This document shows, in pieces, positions 12,449 through 25,441 of a DNA stretch of 28,094 bases. The notes under the pieces were generated by a model. The model did no database searches and was not told the DNA's origin. It saw only the letters and a list, made by a program, of their open reading frames with translations. Each line of letters begins with the position of its first letter. Position 1 is the stretch's first letter. The stretch spans positions 1 through 28,094 of the IMG/VR virus record IMGVR_UViG_3300028581_000193; one strand, written 5' to 3'. The position numbers and the translations under genes are program-made. The DNA comes from a virus.

Positions 12449-15112
12449 ATGCCCTCATATTTACATCTTGCGTATCGACGCAACGCAAGGGCGGCTGCAA
12501 AAAACTACACAGTTAAACCATCTGATAACCAAGAAGCAGTAAAAAAAGCTAGAGAAGATTTTAGTTTCTTTTGTGAATATGTTGCTAATAAACCTCCTGC
12601 CTCCCATCACAAAGATTGGCATGGACACTTTGTAACAGGTGAGAATAGTGTCTGTTTAAAAAATATAGCCGGTCCTAATATTGATCTACTTGGTCCCCGT
12701 GGGCCATTAGCTGTATCTACACCAGTAGCTACTCCTAATGGATGGGTACCTATAGGTGAACTACAAGTTGGTGATATTGTCTTTTCTGAACACGGGCAAT
12801 TAACTGAAGTAGTAGGTATTTCAGATTACGAAGAATCACTTACATGGGAAGTCGTCTTTACTGATGGTTCTTCTGTTCGTTGTGACGATCAACACCTATG
12901 GAAGGTGCGACGAATGGGAACAGACGGAAAAGGAGATTGGCGCAGCATGACGCTTAATGAAATACGTACACAAAAAACAGTAGGAATTAAAGGGAATGGT
13001 CGCCCTGGAGCATTGACCCAAAGAGTTACTGCAACTTGTGAACTAGGAGAAACACCTTGGTTAGACAGTAGAGGTTATCCTCGTTATCAGATTCCTGTCA
13101 CACAACCAGTTGAATATCCAGCAACAGAACTTCCTCTTGATCCATATTTATTAGGAGCATTGCTTGGTGATGGTTCTCTTAGTTCTAATAACCTTTCTTT
13201 ATGCAGTGCAGATCCAGAGATTGTTGAACGTTGTGCCTTAGGATTACCAGAAGATTATCGTTTTAAAAAAGTAGCAAAATATGGATATAATATCTCACAT
13301 GTTAAAGGGGTTCTTGCTGGAGGAAAACCAAGTATTGTGCGAGAGATCCTAAAAACACTCGGGGTCTATGGTAAAACATCAATTGATAAGTTTATTCCTA
13401 AGTCTTATTTGATAGCATCGATACCTGATCGAGAAGCATTGCTACAAGGGCTGCTAGACACAGATGGTACTGTTGCATCTACAGGAGGGGTGTCTTTTTG
13501 TACAACATCTACAGCTCTTGTTAGAGATGTAACAGAACTAGTTCAATCCCTTGGAGGGATAGCAACACAACGTGCGTCACAACTGAATACATACCTAAAC
13601 AAACGTCAAGAGCGCGTACGTACGACAACACCGTCAGTTACCTTAGGTATCAAATTACCAGATAGTATTAAACCTTTTCACTTACACCGTAAAGCCCAAA
13701 GATATTCTCCTTGCACCAAGTATCTTCCTTGCCGCAGCATTAAAAATATTTGCCCATCAACAACAGAAAAAGTACGTTGTATTGAAGTAGCCGATAGCTG
13801 TCATACCTTCTTAACCAAAGATTATATTGTTAGTCACAATTCGGCAAAGTCAACGACCTTAGGTTTGTTTACTGCATGGGCTATTGGTGTACATACCACA
13901 GCTAAGCTACCTTTACAAATTCTTTATCTTTCTTATACAGTTGAAATTGCACGTCCTAAATCAGCAGCAATTAAACGTATTATAGAAAGTCGTAAATATC
14001 AAGAAGTATTTCCGGCAGTCCGTCTATTAAAGAACGTAACAAGTAATGAATATTGGTCCATTGATCATAAATTTGCGGGCATTGATAATATCGGTGATGA
14101 GATGTTTACTCTTTGTGCAGCTGGATTAAAAGGTTCCGTTACATCTAAACGTAGTCATTTATGTTTAATTGATGACTGTATAAAATCAGCAACAGATATA
14201 GCTAATCCTGATATACGTAAAGCAATGCAAGATAACTGGAATGCGGTTATCTCACCAACTATGTTTGAAGGAGGGAGAGCAATATGCTTGGGTACCAGAT
14301 TCAGACATGATGATATACACGCCACTACTTTTAATGAACAAAATAACTGGCAACAAATTGTGTTGTCTGCTATCCAAACAGATCCTAAAACAGGAGATGA
14401 GATTTCTTATTGGCCTGAAATGTGGTCACTGGACTACTTAAAAGAAAAGAAAAGACAAGCACCTGTTGCATTCTCTTTTCAATACATGAATCAGATTGTC
14501 AGGCAAGGAGAGCTATCCCTGGCACCAGAACTGATAGTAAAGGCGGAGATAGCAACTGAATTTGATACACTTGGTATAGGGGTTGATTTATCTGCTGGAA
14601 TTAAAGAAAAAAATGACTACACCGTAATGGTCCTGGGTGGACGTATTGATGATCGTATTCATATCATTGATTACCGCAGGATACGGGCCATGGGTAATCT
14701 AGAAAAGCTAGATGAAATGAAAGAATTGCTTAATGATTGGTCGATCATAGGAAAGGATGACAATGGGAACTACTTCCCAACCTTCTCTACTTGTGATATC
14801 TGGTCAGAAGCCGTCCAGTACCAAGCTTCTCTCGAAGCCGATTTTAAGAGGATTTGCCTTAATGACGAAGGTCTGAACAACTTGATCTGGCATCCCGTCA
14901 AGGGATTCCGTGCAGACAAGCTGGCGCGGTTTAGGGGGATTATAGGCATGTTTGAAGAACGAAAAATAATCTTTAATCGTTTTCGGAACTTCACTAATCT
15001 CTTCGAGGAACTCACAAACTTCGGCGTGAGTAGTCATGATGATTGTGTGGATGCGTTGGTATGGCTAGTAAATGGATTGGCCAAAAAAGGAAAGCTCCAA
15101 TTTGATTACTAG
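12449..15112 (+). CDS. terL: Terminase large subunit containing an intein
   Basis: The 887-residue precursor becomes a 508-residue terminase once residues 86-464 are removed. The Walker A motif is split: GPRG (82-85) and SAKST (465-469) flank the intein, so the motor cannot work before splicing. Walker B is LCLIDD (571-576), and the coupling motif is LGTRF (614-618). The nuclease domain has the expected acidic residues Asp713 (GIGVDLSAG), Glu787 (DIWSEAV) and Asp864/865/868 (HDDCVDAL). The enzyme packages DNA into heads using ATP and cuts concatemers. It lies upstream of portal, scaffold and capsid genes, in normal phage order. The identification is strong. The ATG has no Shine-Dalgarno site. 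Confidence 0.95.
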   Translation: MPSYLHLAYRRNARAAAKNYTVKPSDNQEAVKKAREDFSFFCEYVANKPPASHHKDWHGHFVTGENSVCLKNIAGPNIDLLGPRGPLAVSTPVATPNGWVPIGELQVGDIVFSEHGQLTEVVGISDYEESLTWEVVFTDGSSVRCDDQHLWKVRRMGTDGKGDWRSMTLNEIRTQKTVGIKGNGRPGALTQRVTATCELGETPWLDSRGYPRYQIPVTQPVEYPATELPLDPYLLGALLGDGSLSSNNLSLCSADPEIVERCALGLPEDYRFKKVAKYGYNISHVKGVLAGGKPSIVREILKTLGVYGKTSIDKFIPKSYLIASIPDREALLQGLLDTDGTVASTGGVSFCTTSTALVRDVTELVQSLGGIATQRASQLNTYLNKRQERVRTTTPSVTLGIKLPDSIKPFHLHRKAQRYSPCTKYLPCRSIKNICPSTTEKVRCIEVADSCHTFLTKDYIVSHNSAKSTTLGLFTAWAIGVHTTAKLPLQILYLSYTVEIARPKSAAIKRIIESRKYQEVFPAVRLLKNVTSNEYWSIDHKFAGIDNIGDEMFTLCAAGLKGSVTSKRSHLCLIDDCIKSATDIANPDIRKAMQDNWNAVISPTMFEGGRAICLGTRFRHDDIHATTFNEQNNWQQIVLSAIQTDPKTGDEISYWPEMWSLDYLKEKKRQAPVAFSFQYMNQIVRQGELSLAPELIVKAEIATEFDTLGIGVDLSAGIKEKNDYTVMVLGGRIDDRIHIIDYRRIRAMGNLEKLDEMKELLNDWSIIGKDDNGNYFPTFSTCDIWSEAVQYQASLEADFKRICLNDEGLNNLIWHPVKGFRADKLARFRGIIGMFEERKIIFNRFRNFTNLFEELTNFGVSSHDDCVDALVWLVNGLAKKGKLQFDY
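12704..13840 (+). mobile_element. Intein with LAGLIDADG endonuclease, class-3-like (Pro1)
   Basis: A 379-residue in-frame insertion (precursor residues 86-464) between Gly85 and Ser465 of the terminase. It starts with Pro instead of Cys or Ser (PLAVSTPVATPNGW) and ends His463-Asn464, followed by Ser465. Block B reads GSSVRCDDQHLW, with His149 and Trp151. Block F has Cys444 (VRCIEV), and the residue at G:5 is Ser462. Pro1 with Trp at B:12 and Cys at F:4 matches class 3 inteins, whose usual third marker is Thr at G:5; here it is Ser. Two endonuclease motifs are intact: LLGALLGDGS (Asp241) and LLQGLLDTDG (Asp339). It probably splices itself out and can home into intein-free terminase genes. Confidence 0.92.
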
Positions 15113-19880: not shown

Positions 19881-21047
19881 GTGTTTATTGATACCGATTT
19901 TCCAAAAATCTTAGGTGCAGAACTTTACCGTCCTCACCCTGCTTACATCTGCGAGATGGCCGTAGAACCAGTAGTGGTTCATGACTTTACTCGTCAGCCT
20001 GGTCAAACCGTTCAACTTGATCGCTACAAATTCTGGGGCACTCCTGGTACTAAGGATAGCCGCGAACGTATTTCCGATCAAACCATTGGTACTGCTAACA
20101 GCCGTAACATCACTAAGGAGAAAGTCCTTGTGGTGCTTAAGGAATACACTGGCCCTGCGGATCCTTCTGATCCTACTCAACCCAGTACCTTTAAGATTGC
20201 TCGTGAAACTCTGATTACTGCTCAGCGCATGTTGCTGGACACAGGTAATCTGAATATGTTCCACCAGTCTATTGGCTCCCTTACACTTCTTGATGATTAT
20301 CGTCGTTGGCGTGATCGTGTGTTTATTGATGAACTAGCCAAAGCAGAAGCCAATGGTGAAGCATCAACATCACAAGGTGGTTACTATTTCCCAACTGGCG
20401 CTGCTAAGGATTCCAGTGGCCGTATTTCTTACACCACTGCTCAGTACACAGCTAACTCACAACAGTTCCACGTATCTACCGACCTGTTGAATGTAGTTAA
20501 GGATCTCCGTAAGCGCAACGTACCTACCTTCTCTGATGGTTTGTATCGTTGTATTTGCGATCCTACTTTCATGATGCACTTGCGTCGTGATGCTGACTTC
20601 CGTGAAATCGCACGTTATTCAGGTAATCCTGGCCAAGGCATGTATATGTCTGGCAATCCCATGATGCCTAATAACGCTAGCTTCTATCAAGGTCCTCAAG
20701 CGGGCCAAGGTTACTTCCTGGCTGGTGAACCTGTAATGCCTACTGGCGTTCAGTTTGAAGGTGTTAAATTCTATGAATCTACCAACTTCCCAACCAAGAA
20801 TATTACAGCTAGCTTTACTGATGCTCCTGCTTATACTTCCCAGGAAGTAGCCCAAGGTTTCTTCTTTGGTCCTCAAGCAGTAGGCGTTGGTGTAGGCGGT
20901 CCTAATGCTCAAGTTCTCATTAACAATAATGATGACTTCAGCCGCTTTATCATTCTTATCTGGCAACTGTATGCTGGTTTTGAAATCCTGAACAAGGACT
21001 TTGTTACCACTGCTTACAGCTTCGTCAGCGATGACGGCGTTCTTTGA
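19881..21047 (+). CDS. Major capsid protein
   Basis: A 388-residue protein from a GTG start with an AGGAGG site 10 nt upstream, the strongest in the window. The N-terminal pattern (VHDFTRQPGQTVQLDRYKFW, then TIGTANSRNITKEKVLVVLK) resembles the N4-gp56-type HK97-fold capsid family, in which G-x-TV and a conserved Arg precede alternating strands; this is from memory of the family. The middle is rich in Gly, Pro and Asn. Codons are strongly biased to GGT, GCT and CGT, as expected for a highly expressed protein. Position after portal and scaffold agrees. Confidence 0.8.
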   Translation: MFIDTDFPKILGAELYRPHPAYICEMAVEPVVVHDFTRQPGQTVQLDRYKFWGTPGTKDSRERISDQTIGTANSRNITKEKVLVVLKEYTGPADPSDPTQPSTFKIARETLITAQRMLLDTGNLNMFHQSIGSLTLLDDYRRWRDRVFIDELAKAEANGEASTSQGGYYFPTGAAKDSSGRISYTTAQYTANSQQFHVSTDLLNVVKDLRKRNVPTFSDGLYRCICDPTFMMHLRRDADFREIARYSGNPGQGMYMSGNPMMPNNASFYQGPQAGQGYFLAGEPVMPTGVQFEGVKFYESTNFPTKNITASFTDAPAYTSQEVAQGFFFGPQAVGVGVGGPNAQVLINNNDDFSRFIILIWQLYAGFEILNKDFVTTAYSFVSDDGVL

Positions 21048-22359: not shown

Positions 22360-22390
22360 AAGCCCTGCTTCGGTGGGGCTTCTTCATTTT
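22360..22390 (+). terminator. Intrinsic terminator with UUCG loop
   Basis: Nine paired bases (AAGCCCTGC / GTGGGGCTT, with two G-U pairs) close a UUCG tetraloop and are followed by CTTCATTTT. It lies 3 nt after the stop at 22356. It should end the transcript of the capsid block. Confidence 0.85.
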
Positions 22391-22395
22391 AGAAT
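22390..22395 (+). promoter_or_regulatory. -10-like box TAGAAT
   Basis: It overlaps the end of the terminator T-tract and lies 17 nt before the ATG at 22413, so one transcript probably ends as another starts. Confidence 0.5.
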
Positions 22396-22412
22396 TGAAA
22401 TAAAGTAGTAAA

Positions 22413-23117
22413 ATGGCAAACTCAGGTGGTAGGTTCTTTGTAGGAAATATTGGCAGTACTGGTACAGCCACTGGCCCTCATATTCATAAATACGTTAAGG
22501 ATTTAAAAACAGGTTCTTATATTGATCCATCAACAATTAAAAGCGCTTTAACCGGGATTCAGATCGGAGAGAAAAGAACTCCTTTGGTTAGACGCACCTC
22601 TACGGGTGGTTTTGAGTGGAATCCAGATACAGGATTAGTGGTTACCTCACCGTTTGGCCAAAGGACAGCACCAACGGCTGGAGCATCGACTGATCATAAA
22701 GGCATCGATTTTGGTGGCGCAGCTGGAACACCAGTTTATTTACAAGGTTATGGTAAAGCTTTACCTGTACCATCAGCAGGTGGTTACGGTAACTTAATGA
22801 CGTTTAGAACAGGAGATAATAAATATGAATTAGGTTTTGGACATATGAGTAAGCTGGGACCAGAAGCGCAGGTATATGCATCAAATTTAAATTCAAAACC
22901 AGCAGTACCTTCAATTGAACAACGTCAACAAGAACAGTTAATAGGCGCTGGTACAGCATTGGCTTTAATAAGTAAATTATTTGGACAAGCAAAAAACGAT
23001 AAAGATAGTTCCCGTGGTTTATACAGCAGTTTAGTTGGATCAATGTTAAACCCTAAACAAGACACAACCACAGATTTTTTAATGAATTACATGATGCAAA
23101 ATCCGTATGAAGCATAA
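22413..23117 (+). CDS. M23 peptidase with circularly permuted motif order
   Basis: All M23 (LytM-type) residues are present but in changed order. The HxH motif that normally ends the domain is at the N-terminus (GSTGTATGPHIHKYV, His23 and His25), with the matching tail (TGSYIDPSTI) right after it. The HxxxD zinc motif comes later (STDHKGIDFGGAAGTPVYL, His95 and Asp99), then GYGN (124-127), and the last catalytic-type His144 in GFGHMSKLG. The C-terminal 70 residues are helical and Gln/Lys-rich. M23 enzymes cut peptide cross-links of peptidoglycan. It may open the wall at entry, or act in lysis. It starts a new transcript after the UUCG terminator. Confidence 0.8.
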   Translation: MANSGGRFFVGNIGSTGTATGPHIHKYVKDLKTGSYIDPSTIKSALTGIQIGEKRTPLVRRTSTGGFEWNPDTGLVVTSPFGQRTAPTAGASTDHKGIDFGGAAGTPVYLQGYGKALPVPSAGGYGNLMTFRTGDNKYELGFGHMSKLGPEAQVYASNLNSKPAVPSIEQRQQEQLIGAGTALALISKLFGQAKNDKDSSRGLYSSLVGSMLNPKQDTTTDFLMNYMMQNPYEA

Positions 23118-24742: not shown

Positions 24743-25441
24743 ATGGCACCACGTACAGTACAACAGCTTTTTGGGTTTAAAGATCCAGAAGTTAATATGC
24801 TTACTGTCCTTTCTGGATTAGAAGGATATAGGGGGCACGGTGGAAAGGACACTGCTGCTGTAGCTGCAAACGCTCTTTCTAGAATGTTAAGTGGACAGTG
24901 GGGAGGTAAAGATATTGGTAGCGTCATCAAAGCCCCTGGGCAATATGAAGCTGTTTTTAAATATTCAAAACAACAATTAGCTGATCCTGCTTTTGGCGCA
25001 AAAGTATTAGGTGGACAAGACGAATACAATCGAATACGAAACCTTGTAAATAATCCAGATCTTGTCAAACAAGCGTATGAAGCTTCCAGAGGAGCACAAT
25101 CTTTTCGTGGTACAGCTGCATATGCGCACAAAAAACCCACTGATTACGTACCTGTCCCAGGGAAAAGTAACTATTACTTTGATCCTTTAGATAAGACTGT
25201 TTACAATAAAGGGCTACAGCTCTTTGGTGGAGCAGGAGCACCCCCAGTAAAACCTAAAGAAGTTTCTTCTGCTCTGGGATTAGAAAATCTTGTTGCAGGA
25301 GGTAATTTATTTGGTAAAGAAACATTGGAAAACATTATGAAACAAGGTGTACAAGAAGAACTTTTAACTAGTTTGATTCAACCTGAAGAAGACAATACCA
25401 ATCTGTTTACTCAACTTCTGAATCAAACTAGACCATATTAA
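24743..25441 (+). CDS. SleB/Hydrolase_2-like cell-wall hydrolase
   Basis: A 232-residue protein with the layout of SleB-type hydrolases: Glu27 in LSGLEGYRGHGG, then DTAAVAANALSRMLSGQWGG (residues 36-55), then VIKAPGQYEAVF (61-72), which matches the family pattern of a Glu, a xxNR-like helix and a PGQF/Y segment. These enzymes act on peptidoglycan glycan strands. The family usually has an Asn-Arg pair; here the helix reads NALSR. The rest has no similarity I know, ending in an acidic helix. A start at an internal ATG (24797, MLTVLSGLEGYRG) is possible, since the TAGAAT box is right before the first ATG. It may be a tail- or head-borne hydrolase or an endolysin. Confidence 0.65.
   Translation: MAPRTVQQLFGFKDPEVNMLTVLSGLEGYRGHGGKDTAAVAANALSRMLSGQWGGKDIGSVIKAPGQYEAVFKYSKQQLADPAFGAKVLGGQDEYNRIRNLVNNPDLVKQAYEASRGAQSFRGTAAYAHKKPTDYVPVPGKSNYYFDPLDKTVYNKGLQLFGGAGAPPVKPKEVSSALGLENLVAGGNLFGKETLENIMKQGVQEELLTSLIQPEEDNTNLFTQLLNQTRPY

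Follow-up and report, generated by a model that had tools for sequence, protein, structure and literature searches.

The window analysed here is a DNA stretch of 28,094 nucleotides from IMG/VR virus record IMGVR_UViG_3300028581_000193 (positions 1 to 28,094). It carries a cyanophage gene for an M23-type peptidase downstream of a major head protein gene, one further gene, and an HhH gene, in that order. The features of this part of the window are as follows.

19881–21047, plus strand: major head protein gene, upstream of the peptidase gene (phrog_1357, E 7e-17)
22360–22391, plus strand: terminator-like hairpin with a T-rich tail, separating the upstream HhH gene from the peptidase gene
22413–23117, plus strand: gene for a predicted circularly permuted M23 peptidase of 234 aa, ATG start (PF01551, ordinary-M23 profile, AlphaFold2)
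22428–22538, plus strand: residues 6–42, the normal M23 C-terminal part, now N-terminal (GQxIG-type strand, HxH strand, DP end)
22470–22487, plus strand: TGPHIH, with His23 and His25 (His23 is invariant; either His or Asp occurs at position 25)
22539–22634, plus strand: linker, residues 43–74, connecting what are ordinarily the C- and N-termini (modelled with high confidence)
22635–22856, plus strand: residues 75–148, the normal M23 beginning (profile positions 6–78 and PF01551)
22695–22709, plus strand: HKGID, with His95 and Asp99 of HxxxD (invariant in 53 sequences)
22833–22847, plus strand: GFGHM, with His144 (invariant in 53 sequences)
22884–23114, plus strand: residues 158–234, a variable C-terminal tail with predicted helices, modelled at low confidence (pLDDT <50)

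The motifs follow one another in the 234-aa ORF as TGPHIH, HKGID, and GFGHM. An earlier, sequence-only reading had named five active-site residues, and exact codon coordinates confirmed their positions: His23 (nt 22479), His25 (nt 22485), His95 (nt 22695), Asp99 (nt 22707), and His144 (nt 22842). In M23 enzymes, the second His of HxH and both the His and the Asp of HxxxD are zinc ligands. We take His144 to be the M23 catalytic His of the YxH-type motif. Because the motif order is HxH, HxxxD, His instead of HxxxD, His, HxH, the protein was classed as a permuted M23 variant and not as an ordinary member.

A TAA codon stands in frame 12 nt before the ATG. A missing part is thus not provided by an extension at the N-terminus, and a hidden upstream exon or an alternative start was ruled out. 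A six-frame motif scan of the window detected a single plausible HxH site and a single HxGxD site, each within the peptidase ORF, and the sole extra pattern match fell in a 31-residue frame. A second M23 domain in a neighbouring frame, the finding that the sequence-only reading had named as counting against a complete permuted domain, was present in no frame. The start region of the gene is similar across many sampled relatives, and a terminator-like hairpin lies at the matching place in many of them. The element TTTAGAATTGAAATAAA is located at window positions 22388–22404, 5' of the start codon; it has one exact copy in the window, several relatives have a similar sequence, and it is a possible promoter element.

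Two further observations concern other genes of the window. The region 24743–25441, a few genes 3' of the M23 gene, yielded a weak SleB-type Hydrolase_2 match (E 0.0022, below the cut-off), and its product is possibly a second cell-wall enzyme. The large terminase gene (12449–15112) is split by an intein-like insert with LAGLIDADG (residues 86–464, nt 12704–13840), which sits in a Walker-A-like GPRG/SAKST sequence and apparently starts with Pro.

We assessed the motif order by profile comparison. PF01551 recognized the window protein with 37.7 bits (cut-off 28.7) in two stretches, residues 94–148 matching model positions 2–55. A profile built from the 79 ordinary-order M23 domains of the fetched loci matched an N-terminal piece (residues 10–42 to positions 92–122, i-E 1.6e-4, Z=1000) and a second piece (residues 75–148 to positions 6–78, i-E 3.2e-16, Z=1000), so that both halves are found in reverse order, as first proposed from the motifs. 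All 112 permuted proteins matched this profile, 87 in two segments and 25 in one, and the order was swapped in each of the 87. As controls, the 79 ordinary-order domains, which are the profile's own members, each gave one colinear segment. Profile positions 79–91 are absent from the window match; they correspond to the turn from the His144 strand to the next strand and thus mark the site of the permutation cut. The sequence-only reading had placed the cut in a loop before the last strand. The cut does lie in an inter-strand turn, but it shifted two strands to the N-terminus (E6–14 and E23–30), not one. Judged from these sequence comparisons, the M23 domain at 22413–23117 is a real and complete circular permutation.

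Structure prediction gave a consistent picture. The AlphaFold2 model of the full protein had pLDDT values in the nineties over most of residues 21–150 and a low-confidence tail. Residues 1–158, modelled with an alignment of 53 sequences, formed one compact, strand-rich domain (pLDDT 93.6, pTM 0.88, five models alike), with 10-residue blocks of the linker (residues 43–74) at pLDDT 95–97. Foldseek searches of the PDB with the full-length and 1–158 models returned nothing significant; a sequential aligner can miss a permuted fold, but the lack of matches lends the permutation no positive support. Among viral models, the best match was A0A510E7V3 and the second best was the virion protein H6WFX6 of S-TIM5 (E 1.6e-4, 147 columns), which is permuted by its own sequence; an ordinary phage M23 protein aligned to the window model over just 88 columns.

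Very probably, then, the window protein contains a complete, circularly permuted M23-type zinc endopeptidase domain. The segment that usually closes an M23 domain (GQxIG-type strand, TGPHxH strand, DP end) would stand at the start, about 32 linker residues would bridge the former C- and N-termini, and the segment that usually opens the domain (TSxFG.R, HxxxD, His144 strand) would come next. The new termini would fall in the turn joining one strand to its neighbour, and His23, His25, His95, Asp99, and His144 may be expected to form the usual M23 zinc site. That the domain is complete and not a partial fusion, as had been suggested, is supported by the swapped profile pieces, the conserved sites, and the single confident predicted domain.

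A search for phage proteins with the identical motif order, proposed with the original observation, found many. With the window protein as a query, the IMG/VR scan returned 60 loci, nearly all of them permuted; the few weakest matches, L056 and L060 among them, have the ordinary order. A scan with the S-EIV1 homologue returned 45 loci, whereas IMG/VR relatives of the S-TIM66 permuted domain were not found. The fetched loci contained 267 full-length matches to a permuted profile, Acinetobacter and Moraxella forms included (111 distinct; 20 clusters at 72% identity). The window peptidase is thus one member of a broader permuted lineage and not the single odd protein it had been taken for. In bacteria, profile A3 at E 1e-15 detected the permuted domain in one of 369 genomes of the Acinetobacter sichuanensis class, namely the A. 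sichuanensis genome itself, and in four of 149 genomes of its family, that genome included. A tight-motif scan of genome contigs detected full-length permuted matches in at least eight Acinetobacter genomes among the 80 loci listed; as only one tight motif was used, this spread is a lower bound. Motif position showed the ordinary order in several candidates, which are thus not permuted relatives: four human-gut phage loci (L143, L145, L147, and L148) and M23 proteins from ACG-2014f, Sf-CH3, Vibrio phage XC31, Listeria phage B054, and ctEw122. Another human-gut phage locus, L144, apparently has the ordinary order and was left unclassed because the HxGxD pattern failed there.

Conservation was assessed across 53 diverse aligned sequences. 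All five active-site positions claimed for the window protein are conserved: His23, His95, Asp99, and His144 are invariant, and position 25 is His in the window group and Asp in the S-EIV1 and tape-measure groups. The active site takes three forms. The window has TGPHIH and HKGID; a second form pairs TGPHKH or TGPHAH with HxGED; and in tape measures and S-EIV1 relatives, TGPHLD or a near variant of it is combined with a third motif of LLH type. The change from His to Asp at position 25 may alter metal binding. Residues 5–158 are under purifying selection (dN/dS 0.05–0.26 in 11 comparisons), and the dN/dS of tail residues 158–234 was above that of the domain in nine of the 11.

The permuted M23 domain was found in three contexts: stand-alone proteins of S-EIV1-like cyanophages, tape measures of Acinetobacter/Moraxella siphophages, and a tail-lysozyme protein of S-TIM5-like cyanomyoviruses. 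The 'peptidase M23 family' protein of Synechococcus phage S-EIV1 (AHV82231.1) is about 33% identical to the window protein over 86% of the query. Like the window protein, it has the permuted order and a neighbouring HhH gene, which lies directly 5' of the peptidase gene in S-EIV1 as well; unlike it, the protein has HxD for HxH and LLHT for GFGHM and is missed by PF01551. The siphophage tape measures (phrog_3519, phrog_1506) share the permuted M23 order in one frame but differ in having HxD, a much shorter linker, and the domain lying within a chain of about 1,460–1,485 aa, as in Acinetobacter phage Aclw_8 (1,485 aa) and Moraxella phage Mcat19 (about 1,460 aa). In Moraxella phage Mcat22 (KR093646), the tape-measure match is divided between two annotated tail proteins, which suggests that the gene is split within the M23 domain. 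This domain is also where PHROGs 20119 and 20905 break.

The third context is a virion structural protein with Phage_lysozyme2 in S-TIM5 and S-TIM66. It resembles the window protein in its permuted order, its HLH, and its Foldseek match to the window model, and differs in that the domain is embedded with long flanks. The 1,020-residue S-TIM5 frame has HLH at residue 558 and HTGVD at 613. The ordinary-M23 profile matched the S-TIM5 protein weakly (i-E 0.64 and 0.076); in the S-TIM66 protein, the HxH half matched clearly (4.3e-4), the remaining half weakly (0.07). In 100-nt steps, the S-TIM5 (L359 16059–19118) and S-TIM66 (L365 1426–4482) genes are 98–100% identical outside the unit, except at the very end, and 38–82% identical over about residues 515 to 700, the stretch that holds the permuted M23 unit. 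On this sequence comparison, the unit is exchanged between the two phages within an otherwise near-identical gene, which suggests that it is self-contained. The S-TIM5 protein has a further weak M23-like stretch at residues 453–487 (PF01551 positions 45–79), upstream of the permuted unit.

The gene neighbourhood and the relatives bear on the role of the enzyme. With the major head protein gene upstream, the peptidase gene falls in the structural module, and among the relatives are tape measures and a protein annotated as a virion protein that has a tail lysozyme domain. The window peptidase is therefore best read as a virion-associated M23 endopeptidase. It would be carried in the virion and would cut the peptide cross-links of host peptidoglycan at entry. 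The same permuted enzyme could instead be an endolysin for host lysis, a rival on role alone: many of its PHROG matches are endolysins, and the cyanophage form is small and stands alone. With the gene lying in a structural block after the head protein gene and with relatives that are tape-measure or annotated virion proteins, we consider lysis the rather unlikely role.

A permuted domain without catalysis, acting as a structural or regulatory LytM-like module, is improbable. Degenerate LytM domains are known in bacteria, and two groups have Asp at position 25, but the other four active-site residues are invariant, the window group retains His25, and HLD is also seen in an ordinary-order M23 domain (L143). 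We give even less weight to a strand-swapped dimer, in which the N-terminal piece would complete the active site of a second chain. The sequence is compatible with strand swapping and the AlphaFold2 model is of a monomer only; against this, confidence is high within one chain, linker included, and the permuted order recurs inside long tape measures and as the unit exchanged between S-TIM5 and S-TIM66. Least probable of all are two unrelated M23 remnants, in which a leftover C-terminal piece would be fused ahead of a second, truncated domain and the two would share no active site. The usual route to circular permutation, by tandem duplication and then loss of the outer ends, makes the sequence alone resemble two fragments, and the S-TIM5 protein has the extra M23-like stretch noted above, but the pieces stay paired in 111 distinct sequences down to about 25–30% identity, the five catalytic positions are conserved in a single predicted domain (pTM 0.88), and the window is devoid of any further M23 piece.

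The origin of the permuted forms was approached with a tree built on re-ordered columns and containing gappy rows. Cyanophage and tape-measure forms grouped together at 86/91, and all permuted forms together at 39/77, a weak branch. The tree is weakly compatible with a single origin. We tentatively propose, at somewhat less than even chances, that one ancient M23 permutation gave rise to a plug-in module with its ends in one turn, which was passed between stand-alone, tape-measure, and tail-hub proteins of unrelated phages. The permutation might be helpful because both ends lie side by side, allowing insertion into long virion proteins and exchange as a unit. The S-TIM5/S-TIM66 exchange is a natural experiment that makes this idea of permutation favouring insertion directly testable.

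The open-access literature searched yielded no published description of an M23 peptidase that is circularly permuted in nature. The case gains interest because the domain recurs in three virion contexts and has been exchanged as a cassette between natural phages. Since colinear family models score permuted M23 domains partly or miss them, as PF01551 misses S-EIV1, the class is probably under-annotated.

Compared with family M23 (PF01551; LytM, lysostaphin, MepM, ShyA, Csd3), the window protein has HxxxD, HxH after TGP, a His at the catalytic position, and a score above the PF01551 cut-off, and it shares the TSxFG.R entry strand, the GTPV region, and the DP end. It differs in its linear order, which is not HxxxD, His, HxH: the halves are swapped, and the new termini fall in the turn that follows the His144 strand. 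Circular permutation has been described for NlpC/P60 enzymes (YaeF, LRAT), another peptidoglycan peptidase fold (PMC6403190). Unlike the window protein, these enzymes have a cysteine peptidase fold that is unrelated to M23.
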